Shown here piece by piece: positions 8,092 to 31,759 of a DNA stretch of 64,000 nt (the stretch's first letter is position 1; every line of letters starts with the position of its first letter). The translations under genes were made by a program, and so were the position numbers. This DNA is from Blastococcus litoris (lineage in GTDB: Bacteria > Actinomycetota > Actinomycetes > Mycobacteriales > Geodermatophilaceae), in NCBI RefSeq assembly GCF_003075095.1, contig NZ_QCZF01000007.1, positions 1 through 64,000 of the forward strand, written 5' to 3'. The notes beneath the pieces are model-generated. The model did not search any database, was not told where the DNA came from, and saw nothing but the letters and a program-made list of their open reading frames with translations.

Positions 8092-8490
8092 GCAGCTCCC
8101 CCGCGGCTCGGAACGACGTCCCCTCCAGCGTGTCCCGTCCAACGAGGGACGTCCACGGACGTGACCACTGTTCGCACCGTGTCGGCCGGCCGTGCACCGG
8201 GCAGCGGCGCGTGCGGCCCACCTGTGACGTTACCGCTACCCACGGTGAGACGAACGGGAGGAGCCTTCCACGCGGGAGCGCCACTCTCGGCGGCCCCGGC
8301 GCAGAACCCGCCAGGTGCCCGCGGGCGAGACGCGCGTGCCATGGCACTCGTGTAGCGCGCCCCTTGCGGTTCCGTGTCGAAAGCCCGAACCCCTGGTCGG
8401 TGACCGCGGATCGGGCACCCCTCGGGGGGTGCGCTCCCGCGATCGACGTGCGGTGGTGCAGCGGAAGACACGGGATGAGAGGAGAAGGCC
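8092..8490. other. Divergent intergenic region, 399 bp
   Basis: No supported gene. It holds the upstream element at 8364-8378 (listed separately) and a GC-rich hairpin GCACCCC/GGGGTGC near 8416-8431 between that element and the coiled-coil gene. Confidence 0.5.
8364..8378 (+). promoter_or_regulatory. Recurrent upstream element, copy 1
   Basis: TTGCGG-TTC-CGTGTC, 127 bp before the start of the small coiled-coil gene. The same 15-bp pattern TTGCGG-N3-CGTGWC occurs at nearly the same distance before two lipoprotein genes and, degraded, before a third. A transcription signal or a conserved 5' leader is inferred. Confidence 0.5.
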
Positions 8491-8712
8491 ATGCCCGCGT
8501 TCCCCCGTCGGCGGCTGAACGCCATCGACTCGGAGCTCCGCGCTCTCTGCGAGGTGGTCAGAGGTGCTCTGGGCGAGCTCGACGAGGTGAGGCGTCGTCA
8601 GTCGGAGCTCTCCGACATGGAAGCCGCCCTCGCCGTCGCGATCGACGTGCGCCGGCGGCGGATCGACGAACTGCTCGATGAGCGGTCCGAGGTCGCGGTC
8701 GCCGCGCAGTGA
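8491..8712 (+). CDS. Small coiled-coil protein
   Basis: A 73-residue, charged, all-helical protein with long Leu/Val heptad-like spacing across most of its length (VVRGALGELDEVRRRQSELSD region). No signal peptide or membrane segment. The ribosome site GAGGAG before ATG 8491 is strong. It shares its type of upstream element with nearby lipoprotein genes, suggesting common control. No family recognised. Confidence 0.7.
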   Translation: MPAFPRRRLNAIDSELRALCEVVRGALGELDEVRRRQSELSDMEAALAVAIDVRRRRIDELLDERSEVAVAAQ

Positions 8713-8872
8713 AGGCGGTCGGGCGCAGCCGCGCGACCGCGACCCGTCGCTCCCACCGGCCGGCGGCCCCGTCGGCTCGGGTGCCCCGGCGTGGGATCCC
8801 CTCACCGCCGGGGGCTGAACGCTCCGAGGGACGACCACGCGGAGGGACGCCCCGGGGGATGTGTCGGCGGCC

Positions 8873-8887
8873 TTGCGGATCCGTGTC
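8873..8887 (+). promoter_or_regulatory. Recurrent upstream element, copy 2
   Basis: TTGCGG-ATC-CGTGTC, 117 bp before the lipoprotein start at 8990. The flanks GTGTCGGCGGCC upstream and AGAAG downstream also resemble copies 1 and 3. Confidence 0.55.
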
Positions 8888-8989
8888 AGAAGCGCCGCGA
8901 CGGGCGTCCGGGCGATGACCCCGGGCAGCCAGACCGCGTCCGACACAGCGGCGCTGCGCGAGGCGCGCCGTGGATCCAGAGGAGTGGAC

Positions 8990-9598
8990 ATGAGCACGAG
9001 CACACGCCGGACCGCCTGGAGCGAGCGAGGCGCCGGACGCACCACCGGACTGCTGCTCGCGGCAGCCCTCGGCATGGGTGGTCTGGCGGCCTGCGGTGAC
9101 TCCGCCGGCCCGGAGGCGGGCGAGGTCACCACGCAGGACCTGCAGCAGATCGAGGACGACCTCGGTGCCCTGGAGGACCGGGTCGGGATCCTGGAGGACG
9201 GCATGGCGGACCCCGGAGCCCCCGTGGATCCGGCGGTCGAGGACGAGGCGGGCGTGTTCGAGGACGCCGAGGCGCTCGTCGGCCAGGAGGTGACGGTCAG
9301 CGCAGCGGTCTCGGACGTCATGACCACCACCGACGTGGGGAGCGCATTCCGCATCGGGGACGACTCGGGCGAACCGATCGCCGTCCTCTCGGCGAGCCCC
9401 CAGGAGCTCGACGTCGACGACGCCGTGCGGGTGAGCGGGACTGTGGTGGAGGTCCGGCGCGACTCGTTCGAGCAGGAGTTCGGGATCGCAGCCGACGAGC
9501 TGTTCGACGACGCGGATGCGTTCTTCTCCGACTTCGAGGGCGAGGTGGCGATCACCGCCGATCGCGTGGAGGTGCTCCAGGAGCAGGCCGAGGGCTGA
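8990..9598 (+). CDS. Small lipoprotein, family member A
   Basis: A 202-residue secreted lipoprotein. The N-terminus has a twin-arginine-free signal peptide with lipobox GLAAC, so lipid attachment and display on the outer face of the membrane are expected. A predicted coiled coil follows (QQIEDDLGALEDRVGILED), then an acidic linker and a small beta-rich domain starting GQEVTVSAAVSDV and ending ITADRVEVLQE. It is a clear paralog of the lipoprotein at 19336 over its whole length and a more distant relative of those at 11281 and 17611. Function unknown; the beta domain has an OB-like strand pattern, which is only a guess. Confidence 0.85.
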   Translation: MSTSTRRTAWSERGAGRTTGLLLAAALGMGGLAACGDSAGPEAGEVTTQDLQQIEDDLGALEDRVGILEDGMADPGAPVDPAVEDEAGVFEDAEALVGQEVTVSAAVSDVMTTTDVGSAFRIGDDSGEPIAVLSASPQELDVDDAVRVSGTVVEVRRDSFEQEFGIAADELFDDADAFFSDFEGEVAITADRVEVLQEQAEG

Positions 9599-9606
9599 CG
9601 ACCTCC

Positions 9607-9665
9607 GCGGCGAGGCGCTGCGTGGCCGCTCCGGGTCTCCCCGGTAGGTCCGAGCGCCTCGCCGC
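9607..9665. terminator. Long-stem terminator between convergent genes
   Basis: A perfect 13-bp stem GCGGCGAGGCGCT/AGCGCCTCGCCGC at 9607-9619 and 9653-9665. The 33-nt loop contains a second small hairpin (CCGGG/CCCGG). It lies between the lipoprotein and the convergent permease gene. Confidence 0.6.
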
Positions 9666-9678
9666 GCGCGACGGCCGT

Positions 9679-10854
9679 TCAGCGCCCGGCCGGCTCCGGG
9701 ACGGGGGACTCGCCCCCAAAGGGCGACAGGGGATGGAGCCGGACGTACTCGGACACCTGGTAGCCGACCGCCGTGACGGGCACCGCGAGGAGCGCTCCCG
9801 CGAGCCCCCACAGCAACGTGCCGGAGGTGACGGCGACGAGGATGACCACGGGGTGGAGCCGCAGTGCTCGCCCGACGATGAGCGGTTGCAGGACGTTGCC
9901 CTCGACCTGCTGCACGACCAGGACGACGACGAGCACGACGATCGCGTCGGTGGTCCCGTTCGTCACCAGGGTGACGAGGACGGCGACGGCACCGCTCACC
10001 GTGGCGCCGAACAACGGGACGAACGCGCCGACGAAGGTCAGCAGCGTCAGCGAGACCCACAACGGCACGCCGAGGACGAGCAGGGCGGCGCCGATGCCCA
10101 CGGCGTCGATGAGGGCCACGACGACGACCCCGCGCACGTAGCGCGCCACCGTGGTCCACGCGCAGCGCGCGGCGCCGTCCACCTGCGCACGTCGACGCTC
10201 GGCCACCCTCTCCAGCAGCCAGGCCCACATGGCAGCGCCGTCCTTGAGCAGGAAGAACACCAGGAAGGCCAGGAGCACGACGGCGCCCAGGAGCTCGAAG
10301 GCCATGCGCGCGGCAGCCATGGGCTCGGGAGTCAGCCGGTAGACCTGGTCCACGACCGCGTTCCGCATCCGGGTGACCTGCTCGGGATCGAGGTGGAGCG
10401 GCCCCTCGACCAGCCACACGCGGATCCGGTCGATGCCGGCGGCCAGTGGGCGGGTCAGGTCCCGGAGCTTCTCCGCAGCCCGGAACCCCACGAGGAAGCC
10501 GATGCCGGTCAGGATGCCGCCCAGCAGGAGCACCGACAGCAGTGCTGCCGCTGACGGGGGCAGGGTGGTGCGCAGCCGGCGAGCGATCGGGTCCAGGAGC
10601 GCGGCCAGCAGCAACGCCACCGCGATGGTGACGGTGACGAGCGGGATGCGGAGCGCCAGCCACAGCACCAGCCACGCGCTCGCCGCGGCGCCGAGCACTG
10701 CTGCGCTGACCGACAGCGTGCGCACGGCCCAGGCAGGGACCGCCGACGCGGGATGGTGGCCCCGGTCGCCGACCGGCGACGCGGTGGACGACCGGTCCAC
10801 CCCGAGTTGCGGCGGGCCGGGCCGGGCCGGCGCACGGCCCCGGAACCGCGTCAC
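9679..10854 (-). CDS. AI-2E family transporter
   Basis: A 391-residue polytopic membrane protein of the AI-2E/PerM family (PF01594). About eight hydrophobic segments are visible, in the family order: a pair near residues 45-90, one at about 100-125, a long cytoplasmic or periplasmic helix region, then a C-terminal bundle with the family-typical FVGAFVPLFGATVSG and VVLVVQQVEGNVLQPLIVG. The GTG start at 10854 has GGAGGAGGG upstream. Members export small molecules or exchange sodium and protons; the substrate here is unknown. Confidence 0.9.
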   Translation of the reverse strand: MTRFRGRAPARPGPPQLGVDRSSTASPVGDRGHHPASAVPAWAVRTLSVSAAVLGAAASAWLVLWLALRIPLVTVTIAVALLLAALLDPIARRLRTTLPPSAAALLSVLLLGGILTGIGFLVGFRAAEKLRDLTRPLAAGIDRIRVWLVEGPLHLDPEQVTRMRNAVVDQVYRLTPEPMAAARMAFELLGAVVLLAFLVFFLLKDGAAMWAWLLERVAERRRAQVDGAARCAWTTVARYVRGVVVVALIDAVGIGAALLVLGVPLWVSLTLLTFVGAFVPLFGATVSGAVAVLVTLVTNGTTDAIVVLVVVLVVQQVEGNVLQPLIVGRALRLHPVVILVAVTSGTLLWGLAGALLAVPVTAVGYQVSEYVRLHPLSPFGGESPVPEPAGR

Positions 10855-11280
10855 GGTCCCTCCTCCGTCGGCTCGGCCGACGTCCGTCCGCGGCGGTCCC
10901 CTCCGGTGGGCGGCACTCCGGGCACGCCCTCCTGCGCCCGACAGCGCGGTGGCCCGTCCGGCGGTCGACGGATCGGGTCCTCGCTTCGAAGGGGAGTGGG
11001 CATCCCGTCGTCTCCTGGTGTCCGCCTCGACGGCAGTGCCGCCCGGCGGGCACGTCCGACGCGCCGCCGTGCGCTGTGTGCCCGGGTCCCGGCTCGAGTT
11101 CTTCCGCCTCCGCTCAACGACACCGACCCGTCACATCCGCGGTCAGCGGCCTTGCGGACACGTGACGAAGCCGGCGGATGCGGGAGAGCAGCCCGGACGG
11201 GGGCAGCCCTCCGGCAGCTCGTCCACCACCCCACGGCGCCCGGCTCCGAGGCGCCGACGTCGATCTGGAGGAGATCCGTC
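10855..11280. other. Divergent intergenic region, 426 bp
   Basis: No supported gene. It serves the permease (leftward) and the lipoprotein at 11281 (rightward) and contains copy 3 of the upstream element at 11152-11166. No other structure stands out. Confidence 0.5.
11152..11166 (+). promoter_or_regulatory. Recurrent upstream element, copy 3
   Basis: TTGCGG-ACA-CGTGAC, 129 bp before the lipoprotein start at 11281, preceded by GGTCAGCGGCC and followed by GAAG, as in the other copies. Confidence 0.55.
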
Positions 11281-11814
11281 ATGACCACCGTCCGTTCCCG
11301 CACCGCCCGCGTGCTCGCCACCTCCGTCGTCGCCGTCTCGGCCGCGCTGGGCGTGGCGGCCTGCGGCGACGAGGCCGACCGTGGCGTCACGCTCGAGGAC
11401 ATCAACGAGGAAGGGGTCGAGGACCAGGGCGACCTCGACGACCTCCAGGACGACGCGTCGGAGCAGGACATCGCCGACGCACCGAACGAGGACGACAGCG
11501 GCGCCTTCTTCGACGACCCCGACTCCTTCGCCAACGAGCCCGTCACCGTCCGGGGCGAGATCGTCGAGGTCCTCAGCCCTCATGCGTTCGTGATCGGCCA
11601 GGGCGACATGGCCACGCTCGTGACCCGACCGACGCCGGACGGCGTCACCCTGCTGCCCGGGTACACCGCCCAGGTCACCGGCGACGTCGGCACGTTCGTC
11701 CTGCTGGAGGTCGAGGACGACCTCGGCGTCGATCTGGTCGACGAAGGTGTCGCGATCTTCGAGGACGGTCCCTACATCGCCGCCGTCGACGTCAACCTCC
11801 TCGACGAGGAGTGA
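11281..11814 (+). CDS. Small lipoprotein, family member B
   Basis: A 177-residue secreted lipoprotein with signal peptide and lipobox GVAAC near residue 24, a very acidic linker rich in Asp/Glu, then a beta-rich domain (EPVTVRGEIVEVLSPHAFVIG ... PGYTAQVTGDVGTF). The segment VxGExxEVLSPxxF is shared with the lipoprotein at 17611 (VLGEVAEVLSPRVFSL), so the two belong together, with the members at 8990 and 19336 more distant. ATG 11281 follows GGAGGA. Function unknown. Confidence 0.83.
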   Translation: MTTVRSRTARVLATSVVAVSAALGVAACGDEADRGVTLEDINEEGVEDQGDLDDLQDDASEQDIADAPNEDDSGAFFDDPDSFANEPVTVRGEIVEVLSPHAFVIGQGDMATLVTRPTPDGVTLLPGYTAQVTGDVGTFVLLEVEDDLGVDLVDEGVAIFEDGPYIAAVDVNLLDEE

Positions 11815-11835
11815 TGCCGGGCGCCAGGAGCGGCG

Positions 11836-11851
11836 ACCGGGGTGTCCCGGT
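11836..11851. terminator. Short hairpin between convergent genes
   Basis: ACCGGG-gtgt-CCCGGT in the 42-bp gap between the lipoprotein and the STAS gene. The stem is 6 bp, without a T tract. Confidence 0.35.
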
Positions 11852-11856
11852 GTCGG

Positions 11857-12204
11857 TCACCCCGCCGAGGGTGCGGGCCGAGGTCCGCTCGCCTGGCCGT
11901 CAGGGACGAGCAGGGTGAGGCGGCCGCCGTCCGCCTCCACCGCGGCACGGATCGCCTCCACCGAGCTCAGCCCGTCCTCGTCGACCGACCCGATCCCGCG
12001 CAGGTCGAGGACGACGCCGGGGCGGCCGGCGCCGCGGAGGGCGTCGACGGTTCCTCTCAGCTGATGGGCGCTGGCGCCGGTCAGGTCCCCCTCCGCCCGG
12101 ATGGTTCCCACCCGCGTGTCGACGACCTGGCTGAAGGCTGCTGCCGCCTCCGGCCCCGGAGCCGGACGCGTGCGGCTCTCCTCGTCGTCCTCCGGCTGCT
12201 CCAC
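11857..12204 (-). CDS. STAS-domain protein (anti-sigma factor antagonist-like)
   Basis: A 115-residue protein in which nearly the whole length is a STAS fold (strand GTIRAEGDLTGAS, then PGVVLDLRGIGSVDEDGLSSVEAI, then RLTLLVP). In SpoIIAA-type antagonists a Ser or Thr in the D-S-S/A-G-L loop is phosphorylated; here the loop reads SVDEDGLSS, with Asp-Glu-Asp at the usual phospho-site region, so it may not be switched by phosphorylation. GTG 12204 is preceded by GGAGG. No anti-sigma kinase is adjacent. Confidence 0.8.
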   Translation of the reverse strand: MEQPEDDEESRTRPAPGPEAAAAFSQVVDTRVGTIRAEGDLTGASAHQLRGTVDALRGAGRPGVVLDLRGIGSVDEDGLSSVEAIRAAVEADGGRLTLLVPDGQASGPRPAPSAG

Positions 12205-12422
12205 GGCTGTCCTCCGTCATGGTCGGCCCCGCGCACCCGCTGGGGTGGGGCGGCTCGCCCGTGCCCGCCGGCCCGGCGGTGCCGGACCCTGCTCCACCGT
12301 GGCAGCGGCTCGTCCGCGTGGGCAGTGCCGCGGGTGAATCCGTCATGCAGTTGTCGGTCGGGCGCGCGGCGGCTCGGGGGGACGGAGCGGAGAAGATGAC
12401 GCAGATGTGACGCAGTGCCTGG

Positions 12423-13046
12423 TCAGCGCGGTGGCGACGTCCTGTCGCCGGCGGGGGAGCTGCTGCTGGGGGTCTCGCTGGGCGGCGGTTCCTGCGGCGC
12501 CACGGAGGCGAAGTCGTCGCGATCGACCGGTCCCGCCGACAGACCCGCGTCGGTGGGGACCTCGACCGGCACCCCCTCCACCGTGAACCGGACCCGGTCG
12601 ACCGCCGGCAGGTCGGTGAGAGTCCAGACGACCTGGGCGACGGCGAGCAGCTGGTTACCCCCGGTGATCCCGGTGAATCCCCGCGTGACCGACACGGTGA
12701 CGCTCCCGGTGGGCAGCACCTCCTCGACGCCGACGAGCTCCGGGGGCAGTGCCGTCCTGATGCCGCCGGCCGCCTCGGCGCGGGTGGGACCCTCCGCGAC
12801 CTGCTCGAGCGCCGTGGCCGGCGTGGCGGCGTGGATCCGTCGCTGCACCGGGGCCAGGGCCGCGCCGCGCACGAGGAACACCGTCAGGTGCGGGCCCGAC
12901 ACCTGGTCCCCGGTGCCCGGCCGCGTGGCCGCCGGCGCCTCGGTGGGCACCGGCTCCGGCACGTCCTGCGCCGCGACCCCGCACCCGGCGAGCAGGGACG
13001 CGACGACGAGGGCCGCCAGGGCGATCAGCATCCGGGCCCGGCTCAT
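12423..13046 (-). CDS. GerMN-domain lipoprotein of two-component operon
   Basis: A 207-residue lipoprotein: signal peptide MSRARMLIALAALVVASLLAGC with its lipobox cysteine at about 22, then a GerMN-like domain (VTVSVTRGFTG, VVWTLTDLPAVDRVRFTVEG) and a Pro/Ser-rich tail. ATG 13046 overlaps the TGA of the histidine kinase by four bases, so it is coupled to it. The order regulator-kinase-GerMN lipoprotein recalls mtrA-mtrB-lpqB, but this protein is far shorter than LpqB, so orthology is not claimed. A role in sensing or modulating the kinase outside the membrane is likely. Confidence 0.82.
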   Translation of the reverse strand: MSRARMLIALAALVVASLLAGCGVAAQDVPEPVPTEAPAATRPGTGDQVSGPHLTVFLVRGAALAPVQRRIHAATPATALEQVAEGPTRAEAAGGIRTALPPELVGVEEVLPTGSVTVSVTRGFTGITGGNQLLAVAQVVWTLTDLPAVDRVRFTVEGVPVEVPTDAGLSAGPVDRDDFASVAPQEPPPSETPSSSSPAGDRTSPPR

Positions 13047-14515
13047 CGGATCGGGCCGGCGGGGAGTTCCACGACGAAGCGGGCTCCTCCGGACGGGTTG
13101 TCGGTCACCGTGACCGTGCCCCCCATGGCCCGGACGTGACGAGCGACGAGCGCCAGACCGAGCCCCGCGCCCTCGGTCCGGGTCCGGATGCTGCCGCTTC
13201 CCCGGGCGAAGCGGTCGAACACCCGCGACCGCTCCCCCTCGGGGATGCCTGGACCGTCGTCGTCCACGAGGACGCAGGCGGACGTGTCGCTGCAGGTCAC
13301 GGTGATGCCGGTCAGACCGTCGCCGTGCTTGTCGGCGTTGTCCATGAGGTTGCCGAGGACCCGTTCCAACCGGCGCTTGTCGGCGTGGATGACCGCGTCC
13401 TCGGCCCCCGTGTCCACCCGCAGGCGGGCGGTCTGCCGGCCGGCGAGACGACGCCGGAGCAGCGCCTCCTCCACGAGGGCGGCGAGGCGGACCTCCTCGA
13501 GGACGAGGTCGGCGTTACCGGCGTCGGATCGCGAGATCTCGAGCAGGTCGGCTACCAGGCGCTCGAAACCGAGGACCTCCGAACGGAGCACCGACAACCC
13601 CTCCTGCGCCTCGTCCGGGAGTTCCTCCGCGGCGCTCTCCACCAGGTCGAGGGCGCCCAGCATCGCGGTCAGCGGGGTCCGGAGCTCGTGGCTGACGTCG
13701 GCGGCGAACCGGGCGTCGGTCCGGACCCGCGTCTCCAGGGCCGCTGCCGTGTGGTTGAAGGACGAGGCGATGGGGACGAGGGAGGGGTCGCCGCGCGGAT
13801 CGATGCGGGTCGTCAGGTCGCCGCCGGCGATGGCCTCCGCAGCTGACGCGATGCGGTTCAGGGGGCGCAGCGCCGGTCCGGTGACCCACCAGCCCACGAT
13901 GAGCAGGAGGGGGATCAGGCCGGCGACCGAGATGGACAGCACCGCGGCCAGCACACGGTAGGTCCGGTCCAGCTCCTCGAGCGGGAAGATCTCGAAGTAG
14001 GCCTCATCCAGTCCTGCCAGCGGGATGCCGACGGCCATCATGGTGCCCTCGGACGTCTGGATCCGCTGCCGTGCCGCCGTACCGTCCAGCACCCGTTCGG
14101 CCAGGCTCCCGGGCACGTCGTCGCGTCCGATGAGCAGGGACGTGGTCACCCACTCGCCGTCGTCGACGTACAGGGAGACCGAGCCGCTCTCGCGCGGGAG
14201 CTGTGCGAGCACCTGCGGCACGGTGAGCCCTTCCGTGCCGAGGGCGCGCTGCACCTGACGGGCGTTGTCCGTGGCCTGGACGAGGGTGGCCCTCTCCCGC
14301 TGCACGAGCAGGTACTGGGAGACCGCCACCCAGACGGCGACGACGAGGATCGCGCAGAGCACCGTGGTGACCGCCGTGAAGGCCAGGGTGGCGCGCCCGC
14401 GCAGCGTCCGCAGGGGACCGACCGGCCCTCGTCCCTCCTCGACGGCGGGCCTGGCCACGGCCTCCTCGGCGTCGGCCGGGAGGGTCGGGCCAGGGCGGTC
14501 CTGAGTCGCGGTCAC
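13043..14515 (-). CDS. Sensor histidine kinase
   Basis: A 490-residue membrane histidine kinase. TM1 is at about 43-66, an extracytoplasmic sensor of about 120 residues follows, and TM2 is near 195-220. Next come HAMP (GPALRPLNRIASAAEAI), HisKA with the phosphoacceptor in DVSHELRTPLTAML, and HATPase with NLMDNADKHG, DDDGPGIP and GAGLGLALV. The GTG at 14515 overlaps the regulator stop by four bases, which fixes the start; the longer upstream frame lies inside the regulator gene. All catalytic motifs are intact. The signal is unknown, but the lipoprotein partner suggests an envelope stimulus. Confidence 0.92.
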   Translation of the reverse strand: MTATQDRPGPTLPADAEEAVARPAVEEGRGPVGPLRTLRGRATLAFTAVTTVLCAILVVAVWVAVSQYLLVQRERATLVQATDNARQVQRALGTEGLTVPQVLAQLPRESGSVSLYVDDGEWVTTSLLIGRDDVPGSLAERVLDGTAARQRIQTSEGTMMAVGIPLAGLDEAYFEIFPLEELDRTYRVLAAVLSISVAGLIPLLLIVGWWVTGPALRPLNRIASAAEAIAGGDLTTRIDPRGDPSLVPIASSFNHTAAALETRVRTDARFAADVSHELRTPLTAMLGALDLVESAAEELPDEAQEGLSVLRSEVLGFERLVADLLEISRSDAGNADLVLEEVRLAALVEEALLRRRLAGRQTARLRVDTGAEDAVIHADKRRLERVLGNLMDNADKHGDGLTGITVTCSDTSACVLVDDDGPGIPEGERSRVFDRFARGSGSIRTRTEGAGLGLALVARHVRAMGGTVTVTDNPSGGARFVVELPAGPIR

Positions 14516-15207
14516 GCCGGGATTCGGTAGCCCATGCCCCGCACGGTGGTGACCAGGGTGGGCTGGCCCGGGTCCTGCTCGACCTTCTTGCGCAGCCTGC
14601 GGACGTGCACGTCGACCAGGCGTGAGTCGCCGAAGTAGTCGTAGCCCCAGACGCGTTCCAGGAGCTCCTCCCGGCTCAGCACGCGGCCGGGCTCCTCGGC
14701 CAGCTCGCACAGGAGCCGGAACTCGGTGCGGGTCAGGTTCACGACCTGCCCATTGCGGGTGACGGTGCCGTCCTGAGGGGCGATCTCGAGCTCGCCGACC
14801 GCGATCCGCACCCGCGGTTCAGGGGCCCGTGTCCGCCGCGCCAGCGCCCGGATCCGTGCGGACAGCTCCTTGGCGACGAACGGCTTGGAGACGTAGTCGT
14901 CGGCTCCAGCCTCCAGCCCGGCGACGACGTCGTGGCTGTCGCCACGGGCCGTGACCATGATGATCGGCACGTTCGACGTCCGGCGGATCTCCCGGCACAC
15001 CTCGAAGCCGTCCTTGCCGGGGAGCATCAGGTCCAGGAGGACGACGTCGAAGTCGCGTTCCCCCACCTGCTCCAGCCCGGCCTCGCCGCTCTCCGCCTCG
15101 GCGACCTCGAGCCCCTCCCGCTGCAGGGTCATCTGCAGGATCCGCCGGATCCGGGGGTCGTCTTCGATGATGAGCACGGAACGAGCCACGTCGTTGAGTC
15201 TGCCCAT
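14512..15207 (-). CDS. OmpR/PhoB-family response regulator
   Basis: A 231-residue regulator. The receiver domain has acidic residues in VLIIEDD, phospho-acceptor D59 in LLDLMLPGKDG and conserved lysine K108 in YVSKPF. The C-terminal winged helix is of OmpR type (TRTEFRLLCELAEEPGRVLS, VDVHVRRLRKKVE, TVRGMGYRI). ATG 15207 has GGGAGG upstream; the longer frame to 15297 is low-complexity Arg and is not used. It is first in the regulator-kinase-lipoprotein operon. Confidence 0.93.
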   Translation of the reverse strand: MGRLNDVARSVLIIEDDPRIRRILQMTLQREGLEVAEAESGEAGLEQVGERDFDVVLLDLMLPGKDGFEVCREIRRTSNVPIIMVTARGDSHDVVAGLEAGADDYVSKPFVAKELSARIRALARRTRAPEPRVRIAVGELEIAPQDGTVTRNGQVVNLTRTEFRLLCELAEEPGRVLSREELLERVWGYDYFGDSRLVDVHVRRLRKKVEQDPGQPTLVTTVRGMGYRIPA

Positions 15208-15377
15208 GTCGCCCTCCCGGCACCACCGCCGGCGGCGACGCCTCCGCTCCGCCGCCGGCCGCCGGTGCCCTCGCGCCCGAGGATGACCGGCAGCCACCGC
15301 GCCTGCCCTCGTCGGGTGGACCTTGTCGCGGAGCTGTCACGTCCCGCTCGTCGCCCGGGCTCGCGTGTGACGGTCGT

Positions 15378-15387
15378 GTGACGTCAC
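15378..15387. promoter_or_regulatory. Palindrome upstream of the two-component operon
   Basis: GTGACGTCAC is a perfect 10-bp palindrome about 170 bp upstream of the regulator start. Two further GTGAC-type half sites lie nearby (TGTGAC near 15366 and GTGACAG on the minus strand near 15335). It could be an operator, possibly autoregulatory. Confidence 0.35.
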
Positions 15388-15991
15388 GGGCGCGCCGGCC
15401 GGCCGGCGATCCCGGGTGCCGCATCCGCTCGGACCAGCGGGCGATCTGGGCGGCCACGTCGGCGGAGCGGGTGAGCGGCAGCATGTGCCCGGCGCCCGAG
15501 AACTCGACGACCTCCCCGTCGGGCAGCGCGTCGAGCAGTTCGCTCGCCGGCACCTCGGGGTCCGCGCCGCCGTGGAGCACGAGGGTGGGCACCTCCAGGG
15601 AGCGGGCCAGTTCCGTGCCGTCGTGGCTGAGGCTGGCCAGCGTGGTGGCGGCCAGAGCCGGTGCCCGGGTCCTCAGCACGCTCTCCCGCACCCGCGCGAC
15701 GACGGCCGGCGGAGCGGTGGGGCCGACCCCGATCCGCCGCACCAACCGATCGGACACCCACCGGACCGACCGGAGCCGCCGGCCCAGGCGGGCGGTAGCA
15801 CGGAGGACGCCGAACCACGCGCGCCGGAACGGAGCCTCGAGAGCCGTGGGCAACCACCGCGCCGGCAGCCCGGGAGCCGTGACCCCCGAGCCCCCGGAGC
15901 CGGCGAAGACGACGCCCGCGGTGCGGTCGTGCACCGAGGTCACCCGGCACGCGGCGAGGACGATGCCAGGGCAGCGACCTTGGCCCCTGCC
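15384..15991 (-). pseudogene. Remnant of an alpha/beta hydrolase
   Basis: The C-terminal half of an alpha/beta hydrolase is recognisable. It has a cap region, then TLVLHGGADPEVP, which carries the catalytic acid, and EFSGAGHMLPLTRSADVA, which carries the catalytic histidine. The N-terminal half is missing: no oxyanion HG segment, and where the nucleophile elbow G-x-S-x-G should be, the frame reads GQGRCPGIVLAA. The frame also has no stop at the natural end; it runs on to 14819 inside the response regulator gene. Loss of both ends points to a decayed gene. A short product from GTG 15943 is possible but would lack the nucleophile. Confidence 0.6.
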
Positions 15992-16154
15992 AGGGACGGT
16001 TCCGATGCGACGACCTCGTCCAGCCGGACGGCAGGCGGCCGGTCGTCGTGGACGGGACGGGCCGTGAGGTGTGGTCGCTCGACCCTTCCCGGTTCCGGGG
16101 TCCGGTCGAAGGCGTGCGCCGTCCCGGGACGGCCGCCGGGGGGACGCGGGATCG

Positions 16155-16499
16155 TCATGCTCGTCCCGAGTCGCTGCCGTGTCCTGACGGGCGGCCGACC
16201 GCGGGGGTGAGCCCCGACGCCGGTGGAACGCCGGCCGGCGGCTCCCGGTGGATCTCGTATCCCGGCGAGGCGGGGAGCTCGTCGTCGACGACCAGGGGCA
16301 GAGGAGAGGGCGGCGCGGCGGGGCCCACGGCCTGCGCACGCAGGAGCTCGCGGAGTTCCGGCCGCAGGTGGATGGCGACCGGCGGTGCAGCCTCCGCCCT
16401 GAACGCCTCGGCGAGGAGGTCGCCGCGCAGGTCCGCGCCGGTGCGACGTGCTCCGTGCACGGCATGGGCCGGCGGGATCCGCTGGATGGTCGAGGTCAT
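16155..16499 (-). CDS. Hypothetical protein
   Basis: A 114-residue soluble protein starting MTSTIQRIPPAHAVHGARR. The start at 16499 is supported by GAGGAG at proper spacing; the frame stays open far upstream but without coding character. The middle (PVAIHLRPELRELLRAQAV) looks helical, the rest is Pro/Ala/Gly-rich. No family recognised. Confidence 0.5.
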   Translation of the reverse strand: MTSTIQRIPPAHAVHGARRTGADLRGDLLAEAFRAEAAPPVAIHLRPELRELLRAQAVGPAAPPSPLPLVVDDELPASPGYEIHREPPAGVPPASGLTPAVGRPSGHGSDSGRA

Positions 16500-16803
16500 C
16501 GTCACTCCTCGGTGGTGGCGCCGGTGGGACGTGCCGCGTGGGTGCCCGCCGGGCGCGCGGCTGAGCGCGTCGTGACCGCCTCGTCGCGAACCTGTCATGT
16601 TCCCGTCGCAGAGCCGGCCCGCCGACGGGCCGGCGGAGGACGAGCGGGCGCGCACCGGCAGGGGAGGGACGGCGGCCGGACGACCGGGCCGAGCCGAGCC
16701 GTCGGTCCCGTGTCGGTTCTGTGACACCCGAGGCGACGTCGTTTTCCGGTCAGGGCCACGGGCATGCCGACGGCATCCCGCACCTGAGAGAGGAGCACGA
16801 CCG
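16500..16803. other. Intergenic region, 304 bp
   Basis: No supported gene. A degraded copy of the recurrent upstream element (TGTCGG-TTC-TGTGAC) lies at 16711-16725 and is itself part of an inverted repeat GTGTC/GACAC (16710-16727). Confidence 0.4.
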
Positions 16804-17060
16804 GTGTCGGCAGGACACGTCGTCGAGGACCTGCCGACCTCCACGGGCCAGCCACCGATGCAGCAGAGCAACGAGGCCGGCGAAGGGCTGTGCAGCGTCC
16901 ACGTGCACATCGAGCCACCTGGCTGGATGCGCCACGACCCGGTCGACGGGAAGCGGTACGGCACAGTCGGTCGACGTCGTGTTCGACAGCGTGTCGTCCG
17001 AACCCGGTCGCGAGCCGAGCCCCGACGCCCACCCGCGTGGACCGGAGACGCCCTGTGCCG
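16804..17060 (+). pseudogene. Possible small frameshifted gene
   Basis: A GTG at 16804 with ribosome site GAGGAG (spacing 8) opens a frame with strong G/C third positions (MQQSNEAGEGLCSVHVHIEP, GWMRHDPVDGKRYG). Near 16966-16972 this signal jumps to the +1 frame, which continues SVDVVFDSVSSEPGREPSPD. This looks like a short gene with a one-base frameshift, or a sequencing error. No homology recognised. Low certainty. Confidence 0.3.
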
Positions 17061-17099
17061 GCCGAACCCCATCGTCTCGACCATCACGGAGGACTTCAC

Positions 17100-17558
17100 G
17101 TGGAAACCATGGAACGCGACCTCGCACTCCGGTCCCGGGGCAGTCGCGATGTGCTCGCGGCACACCTCCGGGCGCGCAAGGCCGGCGATCTCGAACGGGA
17201 TCTCCGGGAGAACTACTCACCCGAGGTCGTGGTCCTGACCGCCCGCGAGGTGTTCAGGGGGCACGACGGGGTCCGCAGGTCCGCGCACCGGTTGTGGGCG
17301 GCGATCGGTTCGGGGGGCTCGTACACCTACAGCCACGTCCTGGCCGACGACCGCATGGGCCTGCTCGAGTGGCGCGGCAGCGACGACCAGGCGCTCGTCC
17401 GGTGCGGCGTGGACTCGTACCTGATCGAGGACGGGTGGATCACCGCGCAGACCATCCACTACCGCGTCGAGGACCTCTCCCTGTCCACGACGGGTTCGAC
17501 CGCGACGAACGACGACGAGCTCCCCTCGCTGACGGACGCCCGGCCCGCCGACCGGTGA
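17100..17558 (+). CDS. SnoaL-like (NTF2 superfamily) protein
   Basis: A 152-residue protein with an NTF2/SnoaL-type cone fold: N-terminal helix VLAAHLRARKAGDLERDL, then YSPEVVVLTAREVFRGHDGVR, and strands MGLLEWRGSD and DSYLIEDGWITAQTIHYRV. Such proteins are small ligand-binding or isomerase-like folds; here the most likely type is a DUF4440/SnoaL stress-associated protein. GTG 17100 has GGAGG at spacing 8. The lipoprotein gene follows after 52 bp and may share its transcript. Confidence 0.8.
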   Translation: METMERDLALRSRGSRDVLAAHLRARKAGDLERDLRENYSPEVVVLTAREVFRGHDGVRRSAHRLWAAIGSGGSYTYSHVLADDRMGLLEWRGSDDQALVRCGVDSYLIEDGWITAQTIHYRVEDLSLSTTGSTATNDDELPSLTDARPADR

Positions 17559-17610
17559 GGCGTCCGGCGGTACGGGAAGGCATCACGACACCGACGACAG
17601 GAGACCGGAC

Positions 17611-18123
17611 ATGCGCGCACACCGATCGGGACGGCTGGCCGGCCCACTGCTCTCCGCGGGCCTGGCGCTGTCCGGCGTGGCGCTCGCGGGCTGCGGGGAC
17701 GACCTGGACGACCAGGCGACCGCGCCGGAGCTCGAGGCCGCAGTGCCCGACATCCGCGGCGAGGACGACGTCACCGACGTCTACACCGGGCTCCTCGACG
17801 AACGCTTCGTCGAGGACCTGCCCGCCTACGAGGACCAGGAGGTCACCGTGCTGGGGGAGGTGGCGGAGGTCCTCTCGCCGCGCGTCTTCAGCCTCACCTC
17901 GATCGACGAGTCGGACGTCGACCAGGTGCTGGTCGTGACCACCGCCGCCGCCGACGCCCGGCCGGAGCCGGGCGCCGAGCTGGTGGTGGCCGCTACGCCG
18001 GAGACCGACCTCGACGCCCAGGCCGTCGTCACGGAGCTGGACCTCGACGTCGACGCGGACGAGCTCGGGGAGTGGGAGGACGAGGCATACCTGGTGGCCA
18101 CGATCGTCGAGCCGGCCATGTGA
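17611..18123 (+). CDS. Small lipoprotein, family member C
   Basis: A 170-residue lipoprotein with signal peptide and lipobox ALAGC at about residue 28. The mature protein is extremely acidic and contains DQEVTVLGEVAEVLSPRVFSL, closely matching the lipoprotein at 11281. A second beta segment (GAELVVAATPETD) follows. ATG 17611 has AGGAGA upstream. It lies downstream of the SnoaL-like gene rather than behind its own upstream element. Function unknown. Confidence 0.83.
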   Translation: MRAHRSGRLAGPLLSAGLALSGVALAGCGDDLDDQATAPELEAAVPDIRGEDDVTDVYTGLLDERFVEDLPAYEDQEVTVLGEVAEVLSPRVFSLTSIDESDVDQVLVVTTAAADARPEPGAELVVAATPETDLDAQAVVTELDLDVDADELGEWEDEAYLVATIVEPAM

Positions 18124-18183
18124 CGTCCGGGAAGGGCCCGCGCCGGCGCCCCGGGTCCCGGCGTACGGGCGCCGCGGCGACGA

Positions 18184-19128
18184 TCAGGGGTGCGCGTCCT
18201 CCGAACCGTGCTCGGCGGAGGTATGACGTGGCCTCGGGTGGAGGGTCGCGTTGAGCTCTCCGCCCAGCATGAGCGCGAGACTGAGCAGGTACGCCCACGT
18301 CATGACGATCACGCCGCCGCCGAATGCGCCCGTCACGGGATTCCCCGCCGCCGCGATCCGCAGGTAGAAGTGGAAGCCGGTCGTGGCCAGCAGCCACAGC
18401 ACCGTGGTGAGGACGGCGCCCGGGAGCGTCTCCCGCCAGGGGGTGCGCCCGTTCGGGGCGAAGTGGAACAAGGCGGCCGCCCAGACGACCAGACCAGCGA
18501 CGAGCACCGGGTAGCGCAGGACGTCCCACGTGAACGCGAAGGCGCCGCCGAGACCGACGACGTCCGCCAGGGCCCGTCCCCGGCCGAGGAACGGCCCGAC
18601 GACGAGGACGGTGAGCGACAGGGCGGCGACCACCGTCGTGCAGGCGCCCATGCCCAGGCCGAGTAGCCGGCGCCGGATCCAACTGCGCCGCTCGACGGTG
18701 TCGTAGGCGATGTTCAGCGCGTTGATGACCACGGCGAAGGCCCCGGAGAGACTGACCAGCGCGCCTGCGACGGCGACGGTGAACAGCTCACCGCGTGCCT
18801 GGTCGAACAAGCCCTCGACCGACTCCACGACGCCCGACGCCGCATCGGTGAAGACGACGTCGAGACTCGAGACCACGTTCTCCTGCACCCGCTGGGCGAC
18901 GTCGGCGCCGACCAGGACATCGAGCAGGCTGAGGATGCTGACCGCCACCAGCAGCGCCGGGAAGAGCGCGAGGATCGCGAAGAAGGCCGCTTCTGCGGCG
19001 AGGCCGAGCAGCCGGTCCCGGTTGATCTCCGCGGCGTAGGCCTCGAGGAACCGCCAGCACGCGCGGGCCGTCGTCCGCCAGCCGTCCGGCTCCTGGCCCC
19101 TCCTCACCAGGCGCCGGGTACCCGGCAC
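18184..19128 (-). CDS. YihY/BrkB family membrane protein
   Basis: A 314-residue inner-membrane protein of the YihY (BrkB, former RNase BN) family. The family opening RLLGLAAEAAFFAILALFPALL is present, followed by about six hydrophobic segments and the late block GGVIVMTWAYLLSLALMLGGELNA. No ATG lies nearby; GTG 19128 or GTG 19107 are the candidates, so the first residues are uncertain. Family roles are poorly defined (transport or envelope maintenance). It is divergent from the lipoprotein at 19336. Confidence 0.88.
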   Translation of the reverse strand: MPGTRRLVRRGQEPDGWRTTARACWRFLEAYAAEINRDRLLGLAAEAAFFAILALFPALLVAVSILSLLDVLVGADVAQRVQENVVSSLDVVFTDAASGVVESVEGLFDQARGELFTVAVAGALVSLSGAFAVVINALNIAYDTVERRSWIRRRLLGLGMGACTTVVAALSLTVLVVGPFLGRGRALADVVGLGGAFAFTWDVLRYPVLVAGLVVWAAALFHFAPNGRTPWRETLPGAVLTTVLWLLATTGFHFYLRIAAAGNPVTGAFGGGVIVMTWAYLLSLALMLGGELNATLHPRPRHTSAEHGSEDAHP

Positions 19129-19213
19129 CCGGTCGGCGAAGACGGGACTGCCGTTGCAGTTGCGTGACGTCCGGGGCAGCCGAGGGCCTCCGGGGGCCCG
19201 TGTTGCGCGGATC

Positions 19214-19230
19214 TTGCGGCTTGCCGTCAG
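19214..19230 (+). promoter_or_regulatory. Recurrent upstream element, copy 4 (degraded)
   Basis: TTGCGG-CTT followed by GCCGTCAG instead of CGTGTCAG, 122 bp before the lipoprotein start at 19336. Preceding GTGTTGCGCGG matches the flank of copy 1. Similarity to copy 2 continues downstream, through a CCCGGGCA block to TCCGACA. Confidence 0.45.
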
Positions 19231-19335
19231 CCGGGTGACCTCCCGACTGCCCTGCGACGACCCGGGCACGGCCAGGACGGTCCGACATCCCGGAGGCCGG
19301 TCCACCGGCCGGCCCGTACCGCAGAGGAGCACGAC

Positions 19336-19899
19336 ATGGCTCACCAGAACCCGTCGACGTCGCAGAGGATGGCGCGGACCGGACGGGCGACAGCACTGGT
19401 CGCCGCCGCCGCGTCGGGTCTGATCGGGCTGAGCGCCTGCGGCTCCGACGACGACGGTGTGGACGCCGTCTCGACCGATCAGATCCAGGAGATCGAGGAC
19501 GACCTGACGGCCCTGGAGGACCGCGTCGGCGTGCTCGAGGGGCAGTCCGGCGCCTCCGTGGAGGAGCTGATGGCGGACCCCCAGGCATACCTCGGACAGG
19601 AGGTGACGGTGACCGACGAGGTGTCCCGTCTCTGGACCACGGCCGATACGGGCGCCGCGTTCCAGATCGGGGGGAACCTGGCCGTGCTGTCCGACACGGA
19701 GCGGACTGCCGTGGACGCCAACGACGACGTGCGGGTGACCGGCACCGTGACCTACGTGCGTGCCGACACCTTCGAGGAGGACTTCGGCATCACCGCCGAC
19801 CAGCTGCTGGCCGACCCCGACGGCTTCCTGACCGACGTCGAGGGGAGTCTGGCGCTGGCCGCCGATCGCATCGAGGTCCTCGAGCCGTCGGACGAGTGA
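19336..19899 (+). CDS. Small lipoprotein, family member D
   Basis: A 187-residue lipoprotein, the close paralog of the one at 8990. Signal peptide with lipobox GLSAC at about 37, then coiled coil QEIEDDLTALEDRVGVLEG, then the beta domain GQEVTVTDEVSRLW ... DDVRVTGTVTYVRADTF and a conserved end GITADQLLADPDGF plus LAADRIEVLE. The whole order and even the upstream DNA resemble 8990, so the pair arose by duplication including regulatory sequence. ATG 19336 follows AGAGGAG. Confidence 0.86.
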   Translation: MAHQNPSTSQRMARTGRATALVAAAASGLIGLSACGSDDDGVDAVSTDQIQEIEDDLTALEDRVGVLEGQSGASVEELMADPQAYLGQEVTVTDEVSRLWTTADTGAAFQIGGNLAVLSDTERTAVDANDDVRVTGTVTYVRADTFEEDFGITADQLLADPDGFLTDVEGSLALAADRIEVLEPSDE

Positions 19900-20199
19900 G
19901 ACGGTCGGCCGTCGTCGGCCCCGGAGCACCCGGTCGCCAGGGATGCCGTGGGTACCCGGACGGCTGCACCCCTCTGACCGCGGGTTCCACCGCCCGACGC
20001 GTCCTGTGCGCACACGTGGCCACCGCCCTCGTCCGAGGGCCGGTCTTCCGACGGCCTCGTGCCGGTGTCGGACCGTGGCGTCGCATGTCATTTCCATGAC
20101 GGACCGCCGGCCGGTCGTTTCCGGCCCGGGGCGCCGGGCAGCGGACGTGCGGCTCGGCAGTCGAGCGAGGGAGGGCGACGTGACCAGGAAGCAGCGCCG
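19900..20199. other. Intergenic region, 300 bp
   Basis: No supported gene. A weak relative of the upstream element (TGTCGG-AC-CGTGGC) occurs at 20066-20079, about 130 bp before the CBS protein start. A frame from ATG 20097 has coding-like composition up to about 20230, which could mean the CBS gene once began there and was frameshifted. Confidence 0.35.
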
Positions 20200-20874
20200 A
20201 TGCCCTGTGCTCTCCGCCGCAGGCGGCCGCCGGTGCATCGCGGCGGGGTCGACGAGCGCGTCGTGGAGCAGGCGGCGGACGCGGTGGCGTCGTCCCTCGA
20301 CCGGTCGCCCGTGAGACACGACGAGGGCCGCGGGCCACGATCATCCGGCGATGCCGGGCGCGTCGGCACGGTCGTCGACGGACCGCGCCTGCTCGGCGCC
20401 ACCGCCGCCGACGTGATGATCCGCGCGCCGAAGGTCCTGCCGGGCGATGCCCGGGTCGCCGACGTCCGTCACCAGTTCGCGGACGACCACGTCCTGATGG
20501 TCCTGCTCGGGGCAGAGGGCCGCCTCCTCGGCACGCTGGTGCGCGAGGACGTGCCTGGGGCGGCATCACCGGCGGCGCCGGCTCTGCCGCTGGCCACGCT
20601 GACCGGCCGGACCGTGGGCATCGCCGAGCCCGCCGTCGCCGTGTACCGCGGGCTCCGGGAGCGTGACCAGCGGCGCCTCGCGGTCGTCGACAGCTCGGGG
20701 GTCCTGCTGGGGTTGGTGTGCCTGAACCGCCGTCGAACCGGCTTCTGCAGCGACGCCGGCGTCGCTGCGCGATCCCACGGGCCGCTGTCCGGTGGCCCGC
20801 ACCGAGCCGTGGCCCGTGGGCACGGCGACGTGGTGGGGCGGGTGGGGCTCGAACCCACGACCCAGGGATTATGA
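20200..20874 (+). CDS. CBS-domain protein
   Basis: A 224-residue protein whose middle holds a CBS pair: ATAADVMIRAPKVLPGDARV ... VLMVLLGAEGRLLGTLVRED, then TVGIAEPAVAVYRGLRERDQ ... RRLAVVDSSGVLLGLVCL. CBS pairs bind adenine nucleotides and regulate partner activity. ATG 20200 (GGAAG upstream) is preferred; GTG 20233 or 20311 are possible. The last dozen codons are antisense to the tRNA-Met-derived attachment repeat, where the stop codon lies, so the tail is unlikely to matter. It is the last chromosomal gene before the integrated element. Confidence 0.75.
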   Translation: MPCALRRRRPPVHRGGVDERVVEQAADAVASSLDRSPVRHDEGRGPRSSGDAGRVGTVVDGPRLLGATAADVMIRAPKVLPGDARVADVRHQFADDHVLMVLLGAEGRLLGTLVREDVPGAASPAAPALPLATLTGRTVGIAEPAVAVYRGLRERDQRRLAVVDSSGVLLGLVCLNRRRTGFCSDAGVAARSHGPLSGGPHRAVARGHGDVVGRVGLEPTTQGL

Positions 20875-30285: not shown

Positions 30286-30498
30286 ATGACCGACCATCCC
30301 GCCGGCCGCGAACCCGAGCTGCTCACCATCACCGAAGCGGCCGACCTCCTTCGCGCGCCGGTCGCCACCCTGCGGTACTGGCGCCACCTCGGCACCGGCC
30401 CACGCAGCTTCCGCCTTGGCCGCCGCGTCCTGTACCGCACCGACGACCTCCACGCCTGGATCGCGCAACAGCACGCCCAGGCCCTCGACCGTCGATGA
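30286..30498 (+). CDS. Helix-turn-helix excisionase-like protein
   Basis: A 70-residue MerR-type/AlpA-like HTH protein: ELLTITEAADLLRAPVATLRYWRHLGTG then FRLGRRVLYRTDDLHAWIAQ. Small proteins of this kind beside a tyrosine integrase act as excisionases or recombination directionality factors. ATG 30286 has GGAG upstream. It lies 85 bp before the integrase. Confidence 0.87.
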   Translation: MTDHPAGREPELLTITEAADLLRAPVATLRYWRHLGTGPRSFRLGRRVLYRTDDLHAWIAQQHAQALDRR

Positions 30499-30567
30499 GC
30501 GAGCGTCGTCCACAGGCGTGCCGGCCTCCCCAGAGACTCGAGACGGCGTTGACCCGGGGAGCCGTCG

Positions 30568-30577
30568 TGGGCACGGT
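30568..30577. repeat. Extra copy of the arm-type motif before the integrase
   Basis: TGGGCACGG, part of the 11-bp arm repeat, occurs just before the integrase start (30584). It could let the integrase repress its own gene, but it is only one incomplete copy. Confidence 0.3.
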
Positions 30578-30583
30578 CATCTG

Positions 30584-31681
30584 ATGGCCGGCAGCATCAC
30601 CGTGGACGTGCTCAGCGACGGCAGCAAGCGGTACCGGTCGCGGTACCGCGATGCTCGCGGGCGGCAGCACGAGAAGCGATTCGTGCGCAAGGTCGACGCC
30701 CAACGATGGCTCGACGAGCAGACGTCGGCGATCGTCACGCAGACCTGGACGGCGCCGGAGCGTGGGCGGGTCACCGTCGATGTCTGGGCAGAGCAGTGGC
30801 TCGCCGCCCAGACCGGGCTGAAGCCCAGCACGCTCTACCGCTACCGATCGCTGCTGCGCGTCCAGATCCTGCCGCGCTGGGGTCGGCACCGGCTGGCCGA
30901 CGTCACCCATGCCGAGGTCGCCGCGTGGGTGGCCCAACTCGTCGCCGGCGGCCTCGCGCCGGCGACGGTGCGGCAGGCGCACCGGGTCCTCGCACTCGTC
31001 CTGACCCTCGCCGTCCGCGACGGGCGCATCCCGCGCAACCCGGCATCCGGCGTGCCGCTGCCCAGGGCCCGACGCGCCGATCCCCGGTTCCTCACCCGCA
31101 TGGAGGTGGAGCGACTGGCGGACGCAGCGGGGGAGTACGGCGACGTCGTCCGCTTGCTGGCGTACACCGGCCTACGGTTCGGCGAGATGGCCGCCCTACG
31201 GGTCCGCCGGATCGATTTCCTCCGCAAGCGGCTCACCGTCGCCGAAAGCGCCACGGAGGTCGGCGGCACCGTCGAGTACGGAGCGTCCAAGACGCACCAG
31301 CAGCGCACCGTGCCGATCCCGAGCATCCTCGTAGAGCCCCTCTCCCGCCGCTGTCAGGGCAAGGGCCCGGACGACCTCGTCCTGACCTCGCCGGGCGGCG
31401 CGGTGCTGCGCTCGGGCAACTTTCGGCGGCGGTTCTTCGACCCGGCGGCCACGGCCGCCGGGCTCGAGGACCTCAGCCCGCACGACCTCCGGCACACCGC
31501 CGCCAGCCTGCTGGTGGCCAGCGGCGCGAACGTCAAGGCGGTCCAGCGGATGCTCGGTCACGCCTCCGCAGCGATGACGCTCGACGTCTACTCCGGGCTC
31601 TTTGATGACGACCTCGGCGCGCTTGCCGATCGCATGGACGCGGCCCACCAGGCGTCAGTCACGAGACGTCACGGTGCGTAG
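30584..31681 (+). CDS. Tyrosine recombinase (site-specific integrase)
   Basis: A 365-residue phage-type integrase. The arm-binding and core-binding N-terminal domains (KRYRSRYRDARGRQHEKRFV; TVDVWAEQWLAAQTGL) precede the catalytic domain. The catalytic residues visible are R198 in TGLRFGEMAALR, H300 and R303 in HDLRH, the later LGHASAAMT histidine, and nucleophile Y336 in DVYSGL. All are intact. ATG 30584 is used because the upstream frame overlaps the excisionase. It sits next to attR and tRNA-Met, as is usual. Confidence 0.95.
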   Translation: MAGSITVDVLSDGSKRYRSRYRDARGRQHEKRFVRKVDAQRWLDEQTSAIVTQTWTAPERGRVTVDVWAEQWLAAQTGLKPSTLYRYRSLLRVQILPRWGRHRLADVTHAEVAAWVAQLVAGGLAPATVRQAHRVLALVLTLAVRDGRIPRNPASGVPLPRARRADPRFLTRMEVERLADAAGEYGDVVRLLAYTGLRFGEMAALRVRRIDFLRKRLTVAESATEVGGTVEYGASKTHQQRTVPIPSILVEPLSRRCQGKGPDDLVLTSPGGAVLRSGNFRRRFFDPAATAAGLEDLSPHDLRHTAASLLVASGANVKAVQRMLGHASAAMTLDVYSGLFDDDLGALADRMDAAHQASVTRRHGA

Positions 31682-31701
31682 TGTGGGCACCGTGTGGGCA
31701 C
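31682..31701. repeat. Right arm-type integrase sites
   Basis: Two tandem TGTGGGCAC copies at 31682 and 31693, again 11 bp apart, directly after the integrase stop and about 60 bp inside attR. Confidence 0.7.
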
Positions 31702-31759
31702 GGGACCCGGTCGTCAAGATCGACGATCAAGAATCGACCCCCTGACCTGCACTTATATC

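Follow-up and report, generated by a model that had tools for sequence, protein, structure and literature searches.

The DNA considered here is a 64,000-nucleotide stretch of the Blastococcus litoris genome (contig NZ_QCZF01000007.1, positions 1 to 64,000; hereafter the window), and the question it raises is what a 15-bp motif, TTGCGG-N3-CGTGWC, is doing ahead of several of its genes. A first-pass annotation had reported three near-identical copies, and the exact pattern TTGCGGNNNCGTGWC does lie on the plus strand at 8364, 8873 and 11152, which is 127, 117 and 129 bp ahead of the starts at 8491, 8990 and 11281. Base composition predicts ~0.027 exact matches in a 64-kb window (P for three or more, ~3e-6). 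The repeated upstream element is real. We propose that the 15-mer is probably the operator half of a composite promoter, at which an MtrA-like two-component system would act, from an upstream site at near-fixed distance, on promoters of the sigma-B type. Binder, sigma factor, activation, transcription start and signal are what we infer in this model.

The 15-mer alone is not a genome-wide signal, because only 26 matches with at most one mismatch were found genome-wide compared to 52 for a reversed control pattern. Exact matches in the 4.63-Mb genome numbered four versus ~1.9 expected, three of them being the window copies. Thus the genome scan that the first-pass annotation had put forward as its refuting test goes against the 15-mer by itself and not against the composite element. 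Twenty-two of the 26 matches lack a second, downstream box, GGGCA; 16 of these 22 are inside called genes, and nine of the 22 have a loose match to a ribosome-binding site plus start downstream. The remaining four (8364, 8873, 11152 and, on another contig, C5:364314) carry the box at +48 to +52, and all are intergenic and upstream of a start. A motif scan with the visible half alone would have discarded the finding.

Computation reveals a composite element that stands at near-fixed internal spacing before genes, is conserved across genera and co-occurs with a regulator gene. Its first part is a pair of TNNC half-sites in the same orientation, repeated at 11 bp (TKDC-N7-TGWC). GGGCA follows, 48-51 nt from the start of the operator, and a weak GNNT stands ahead of that box. 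When 18 sites were aligned on the 15-mer, a little-conserved spacer was followed by GGG(C/A/G)A at ~+50; this set included a match at 19154 that was later dropped and replaced by 19214. The same alignment showed that the proposed shared upstream flank, GTGTNGCG, is not conserved, and that the downstream GAAG noted in the first-pass annotation is the tail of the second half-site. Realignment on the box placed G at -19 in 15/22 sites and T at -16 in 14/22, giving GNNT-N15-GGGCA. Among 40 sites, GGGnA was present at +48 to +51 in 38, partly by selection. Because the 40- and 22-site sets contain matches chosen with the box in the score, the box counts in them are not independent tests. Less biased are the window scan with a 14-site matrix, the matches picked on the operator alone and a scan of Geodermatophilus chilensis. 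Among 32 non-training matches picked on the operator alone (A ≥ 12; the window plus 15 loci), nine had GGGMA at +48 to +51, versus ~0.9% per four-offset window elsewhere.

The operator is a direct repeat. When the first seven columns of the 40 sites were compared with later columns, an offset of 11 bp gave the best match, scoring 7.6 compared to 1.6 for the next best of the 15 offsets tested (5-19). T1 and C4 are held in 40/40 first half-sites and 35/40 second half-sites, partly by matrix selection. As half of the sites start with TG (TGAC or TGTC) and not TT, TTGCGG is one variant of the half-site. The distance to the start has a median of 119 bp over 39 sites and lies between 90 and 160 bp in 32 of them; this list omits the 16711 site (389 bp), two sites in genome G070 and matches without a GGGMA box. 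Genes were called with a home-made codon-usage script; for 20086 and for the site at 9150 in G001, a start picked by eye was preferred to that of the gene caller. The features of the window that bear on the element are as follows.

8364..8381 (+), tandem operator TTGCGGT-N4-TGTCGAA, element 1, 127 bp ahead of the small open reading frame at 8491
8413..8417 (+), GGGCA box (-10-like) of element 1, offset +49
8491..8712 (+), small open reading frame of 73 aa without a Pfam family; G033, G026 and G001 have homologues, as does G070, there behind a site
8873..8890 (+), tandem operator TTGCGGA-N4-TGTCAGA, element 2, 117 bp ahead of 8990
8904..8907 (+), GCGT, the -35-like box (GNNT type) of element 2
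8923..8927 (+), GGGCA box of element 2, offset +50
8990..9598 (+), gene for a lipoprotein with a LAAC lipobox, identified by eye; family in 9/61 genomes, its own included
9679..10854 (-), AI-2E family transporter gene (PF01594), oriented divergently to element 3
11079..11083 (-), GGGCA box of the divergent element, offset +50
11116..11133 (-), divergent tandem operator TGACGGG-N4-TGTCGTT, 279 bp ahead of the AI-2E gene
11152..11169 (+), tandem operator TTGCGGA-N4-TGACGAA, element 3, 129 bp ahead of 11281
11201..11205 (+), GGGCA box of element 3, offset +49
11281..11814 (+), lipoprotein gene; its relative in G033, 75% identical, carries this element too
11857..12204 (-), gene for an anti-anti-sigma-like STAS-domain protein (PF01740 over cut-off)
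12423..13031 (-), gene for a lipoprotein with a Germane (GerMN) domain, the gene being placed like lpqB
13043..14458 (-), sensor histidine kinase gene with HAMP domain, MtrB-like at 231 bits (equivalog cut-off, 450)
14512..15207 (-), OmpR-family response regulator gene, MtrA paralogue and proposed operator binder (278 bits, below the MtrA cut-off of 300)
15322..15339 (-), tandem repeat TGACAGC-N4-CGACAAG, 132 bp ahead of the response regulator start, with a poor box, CGGTCAT
16155..16499 (-), small protein gene without a Pfam family; the element is also carried by relatives in G033 and G. chilensis (48% identity each)
16543..16547 (-), GGGCA box of the 16597 element
16580..16597 (-), tandem operator TGACAGG-N4-CGACGAG, 98 bp ahead of 16499
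16711..16728 (+), tandem operator TGTCGGT-N4-TGACACC; the next called gene, 17100, is 389 bp off
16760..16764 (+), GGGCA box of the 16711 element, offset +49
17100..17558 (+), SnoaL-like gene (PF12680, 26.1 bits, just below the cut-off of 27); a G026 relative (67% identity) has an element 93 bp upstream
17611..18123 (+), lipoprotein gene; the element is present with relatives from G001 (57%) and G066 (51%)
19214..19231 (+), degenerate tandem operator TTGCGGC-N4-CGTCAGC, 122 bp ahead of 19336
19264..19268 (+), GGGCA box of the 19214 element, offset +50
19336..19899 (+), lipoprotein gene, 52% identical to its paralogue 8990
20086..20103 (+), tandem operator TGTCATT-N4-TGACGGA
20136..20140 (+), GGGCA box of the 20086 element, offset +50
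20200..20874 (+), CBS-domain gene with an uncertain start, placed by eye at ATG 20200 and by the gene caller at 20233

Trained on 14 sites from beyond the window, two of which are on contig C5 of the same genome, a weight matrix gave as its top six window matches 8873, 8364, 11152, 11133(-), 20086 and 19214. The sixth scores 15.8 and the best matches per shuffled window (n = 20) reach 10.7-18.2, so 19214 and 16597(-) are placed by position and relatives, not by score alone. The degraded copy reported 122 bp ahead of 19336 corresponds to 19214 (TTGCGGCTTGCCGTC, three mismatches), with its box 50 nt downstream; the match at 19154, with one mismatch, lies within a called gene and was rejected as it lacks a box, which is present at 19214. 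Of the two weaker relatives that had been listed, 16711 held up, with a box at +49, and 20066 was misplaced by 20 bp, the better site being 20086, ahead of the CBS gene. On the minus strand, 11133 and 16597 are sites not listed before; another addition is the tandem at 15339, ahead of the response regulator, which lacks a good box.

Across the 4.63-Mb genome, a sequence-only profile of 21 sites returned nine matches at E ≤ 0.005 (best 150 of 24,780 candidates scored), all within two ~12-kb clusters, C7:8-20 kb (the window) and C5:358-370 kb. Eight of the nine are training sites; the exception, C5:358246, lies 208 bp ahead of a FUSC-like gene (Pfam scores below cut-off). Two other profile matches in the genome, C6:248335 and C3:419132, were set aside as lying inside called genes. 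The genes with an element upstream are, in the window, the lipoprotein genes 8990, 11281 and 19336 (and 17611, by its relatives), the small open reading frame, the AI-2E gene, the CBS protein gene and the small protein gene 16499 and, on C5, two lipoprotein genes and the FUSC-like gene.

The element is also found in relatives. Homologue searches that included the genome itself found the 8990 lipoprotein in 9/61 genomes, the 11281 lipoprotein in 8/61 and the 8491 small open reading frame in 4/61. Within the family Geodermatophilaceae, sites at E ≤ 0.01 occur in 9/36 genomes (G000, G001, G016, G022, G026, G029, G033, G066 and G070, in our labels). The search cut-off of 0.02 brings the number to 12/36, the three additional matches (L141, L142 and L143, from G031, G025 and G061) all being inside called genes and set aside. 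The site genomes that gave no training sites are G016, G066 and G070. One G016 site lies 65 bp ahead of a CsbD gene (PF05532, 65.6 bits, cut-off 40), CsbD being a sigma-B target, and the other, with a poor box, is 67 bp ahead of another response-regulator gene. In locus L148 of that assembly, the reading frame of the response-regulator gene that follows the TTGCGGTTCCGTGACGGT site looks interrupted. The G070 sites lie 374 bp from the next called gene and ~117 bp ahead of a homologue of the small open reading frame that the caller missed.

Geodermatophilus chilensis (L159), a non-training genome scanned after the matrix was fixed, has three sites: 119 bp ahead of an 8990 relative (75% identity), 176 bp ahead of a membrane-like protein without a Pfam family and 112 bp ahead of the relative of the 16499 protein. 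Across other Geodermatophilaceae, G. chilensis included, the element recurs ahead of unrelated genes. A higher threshold, which all three G. chilensis sites would pass, was applied to 41 other loci with the regulator and gave two matches, both in genes. L160 and G026 are one contig and do not count as independent. Order-wide presence was rejected: two weak matches were found among 55 non-family genomes, and the weight matrix placed no intergenic site at either. Outside the family, Kineococcus xinjiangensis (L162 8679-14106) keeps the run of lipoprotein, second lipoprotein, regulator, kinase, Germane-domain lipoprotein and AI-2E genes. It has TGAC-N7-TGAC 126 bp ahead of the first lipoprotein gene, which was not counted as a site because its GGGCA is at ~+61. 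Separately, a conserved relative of the element, TGACAKTCTCCTGACAGA with GTGGCAA at +49, is found at L099:718 and L105:15939; the former is 66 bp ahead of a PPDK_N/PEP-utiliser gene, and the L105 locus ends before a gene is callable.

What might bind the operator? The window cluster holds an OmpR-family regulator gene, a HAMP kinase gene and a Germane-domain lipoprotein gene in a row, which is the order of mtrA-mtrB-lpqB. The regulator and kinase score 278 versus 300 bits and 231 versus 450 bits against the NCBIfam equivalog cut-offs for MtrA and MtrB and, judged by these scores, are paralogues and not MtrAB. The canonical MtrA of this genome is at C8:16119 (380 bits). Unlike the MtrAB-LpqB system that it resembles, the window system is a separate paralogous copy, its regulator 50% identical to G033 MtrA and present (E ≤ 1e-80) in 9/36 family genomes. 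Canonical MtrA is found in 34/36 genomes and therefore does not track the sites. By contrast, the paralogue is found in 8/9 genomes with sites at E ≤ 0.01, and sites are found in 8/9 genomes with the paralogue (n = 36; hypergeometric P = 2.6e-6, phylogeny ignored); with the 12 site genomes at the 0.02 cut, P is 1.3e-4, again ignoring phylogeny. In one genus of 16 genomes, the paralogue and the 8990-type lipoprotein are confined to the same three genomes. A tandem repeat lies 118-132 bp ahead of the regulator start in three loci of differing sequence (the window, G033 and G. chilensis). At the regulator starts of L114-L121 a GGCAGACT-type stretch was seen by eye in several genomes, a few bases ahead of a VxRSVLIIED start, which suggests a leaderless promoter.

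The tandem operator looks like one of the response-regulator type, its T1 and C4 and its 11-bp period being those expected of an MtrA-type site. Published MtrA half-sites are direct repeats 5-6 bp apart, G/T-T-G/A-A-C-C-N5-G-T-G/T-A-C-N (PMC5650626), and T1 and C4 are the sole bases conserved across all 7-bp MtrA half-sites found (PMC13189361). The element resembles the MtrA operators of Streptomyces, Mycobacterium and Corynebacterium in being a direct repeat of short half-sites with what appears, in our register, to be the same T and C. It differs from them in that its first half-site is often TTGC, its sites track the MtrA paralogue and not MtrA, and it stands at a near-fixed distance from a GGGCA box, a pairing that does not appear in the available portions of PMC5650626 and PMC13189361.

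The box itself would suit a sigma-B-group factor. S. coelicolor SigB-group promoters have a -10 with near-invariant GGG and A at position 5, reading GGGCA in rrnEp2, SCO2026p, SCO5332p and SCO6014p, and the osmotic-stress group has a GNNT -35 (PMC8346170). The present promoters are like these in GGGnA and a similar spacing, with a weak candidate GNNT where a -35 would be expected, ~18-21 nt ahead of the -10, and unlike them in being found via an upstream tandem operator and in that the fourth -10 base is usually C. The genome encodes a SigBFG-family sigma factor over cut-off (C2:361490, 298 versus 234 bits), with a GTTT-N17-GGGTA match upstream of the gene preceding it, and the STAS-domain gene (11857-12204) sits within the window cluster. 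A sigma-B-group factor is the predicted reader of the GGGCA promoters. The first-pass annotation had offered a promoter for an alternative sigma factor, an operator or a conserved 5' leader, and had recognised no known actinobacterial box. The first of these fits the separate, previously unnoticed GNNT-N15-GGGCA box and not the 15-mer; the second fits the 15-mer half, which looks like a tandem operator of the response-regulator type, and not the whole element. A structured leader found no support, as the element sites gave no Rfam match at the gathering threshold and the RNAalifold consensus structure of the 18 sites was empty. The remark on known boxes was only partly right, since the half-sites correspond to those published for MtrA and the -10 to that of published SigB-group promoters.

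How might these parts work together? Most likely, the two TNNC half-sites, with their 11-bp period, would be bound by a dimer of the MtrA-like regulator (14512-15207), paired with the kinase (13043-14458). Assuming a transcription start ~8 nt after the -10 box, the bound regulator would sit at about -64 to -47 and contact RNA polymerase carrying a sigma-B-group factor, which would read the weak GNNT (-35) and GGGCA (-10) ~31 and ~50 nt from the operator start. The predicted output is a local stress/envelope regulon of secreted lipoproteins, AI-2E and FUSC-like membrane proteins, a CBS protein and other small proteins. More tentatively, and at clearly lower confidence, a paralogous MtrAB-LpqB-like system may have been wired onto the general stress sigma factor, the promoters acting as two-input gates that need both phosphorylated regulator and free sigma-B. 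Sigma-B might be freed by partner switching, in which the STAS protein may take part, and the secreted lipoproteins might feed back on the envelope sensor. To our knowledge, few bacterial promoters tie a two-component regulator and a general-stress sigma factor together by one conserved spacing rule. The kinds of component are known, and the pairing, the paralogue and the regulon look new: among the open-licence PubMed Central matches listed (titles and abstract starts), no pairing of MtrA or another response regulator with SigB-type promoters was reported. Under this proposal a regulon of lipoproteins, largely unnamed ones, can be tested in hardy soil actinobacteria, and an MtrA-MtrB-LpqB-like paralogue gains a candidate function.

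Several observations weigh against this proposal. Six of the nine site genomes gave training sites, and the 0.01 cut was chosen after the list was seen. G016 has sites and no regulator match at E ≤ 1e-80, and G062 has the regulator and no site. The box is missing in 15/20 non-training operator-only matches with A ≥ 14 (present in 5/20), and the -35 box is weak. The tandem precedes the regulator in only 3/10 loci examined, all close relatives, with a poor box in the two that were scored. Only one SigBFG-family sigma factor is over cut-off, and its gene is on another contig. Weak sites may have escaped the profile searches, in which only the best 92-150 among thousands of first-look candidates were scored for each genome. 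Finally, the recognition helix, as we take it to be placed, is nearly identical in the paralogue and in the MtrA of G033 and G036, so canonical MtrA could read the tandem.

This last point favors the strongest alternative, in which canonical MtrA (C8:16119) and not the paralogue reads the operator, the element then forming a specialised part of the ordinary MtrA regulon that is linked to promoters of the sigma-B type; the match to published MtrA half-sites speaks for it as well. We consider it unlikely, as MtrA is nearly universal in the family and sites at E ≤ 0.01 are present in a quarter of its genomes, where they follow the paralogue and, in the window cluster, surround its gene.

The regulator might instead be a repressor at the sigma-B-type promoters, some targets being repressed by MtrA (PMC5650626). 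That reading is distinctly improbable given that the site is upstream of the promoter at near-fixed spacing, not over it, and that the -35 is weak. Such an arrangement is usual for activation.

There is still less in favor of the 15-mer itself being a promoter, with TTGCGG as a sigma-A -35, or CGTGWC as a -35 or -10 for an extracytoplasmic function sigma factor. TTGCGG does resemble TTGACA, and weak T-centred columns follow GTGWC at +32 to +36 (T at +34 in 9/18 sites). However, no AT-rich -10 lies 16-18 nt from TTGCGG: a sigma-A TANNNT-like box ~17 nt after it was sought and not found, columns +22 to +29 holding ≤0.27 bits. The TG starts in half of the sites break the -35 reading and leave the repeat reading intact, and the strongest downstream columns are GGGMA at ~+50. 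These data make a promoter within the 15-mer very unlikely.

That the shared upstream DNA is a duplication relic without selected function would suit the paralogy of the 8990, 19336 and C5 lipoproteins, and is extremely unlikely, because the sequence between the boxes is little conserved while two short boxes are conserved at near-fixed spacing, on either strand, before unrelated genes (AI-2E, CBS, FUSC-like, CsbD and the small open reading frame), and are kept by relatives in other genera.

Two features elsewhere in the window were also noted. Within 30286-31835, two genes, one for a small helix-turn-helix protein (PF12728) and one for a phage-type integrase (PF00589), end beside a tRNA gene at 31762-31835(-), and this region is perhaps one end of an integrated element. 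Just ahead of the called gene at 32170, a c-di-AMP riboswitch (ydaO/yuaA, RF00379, 63 bits) lies at 31996-32158 (+).

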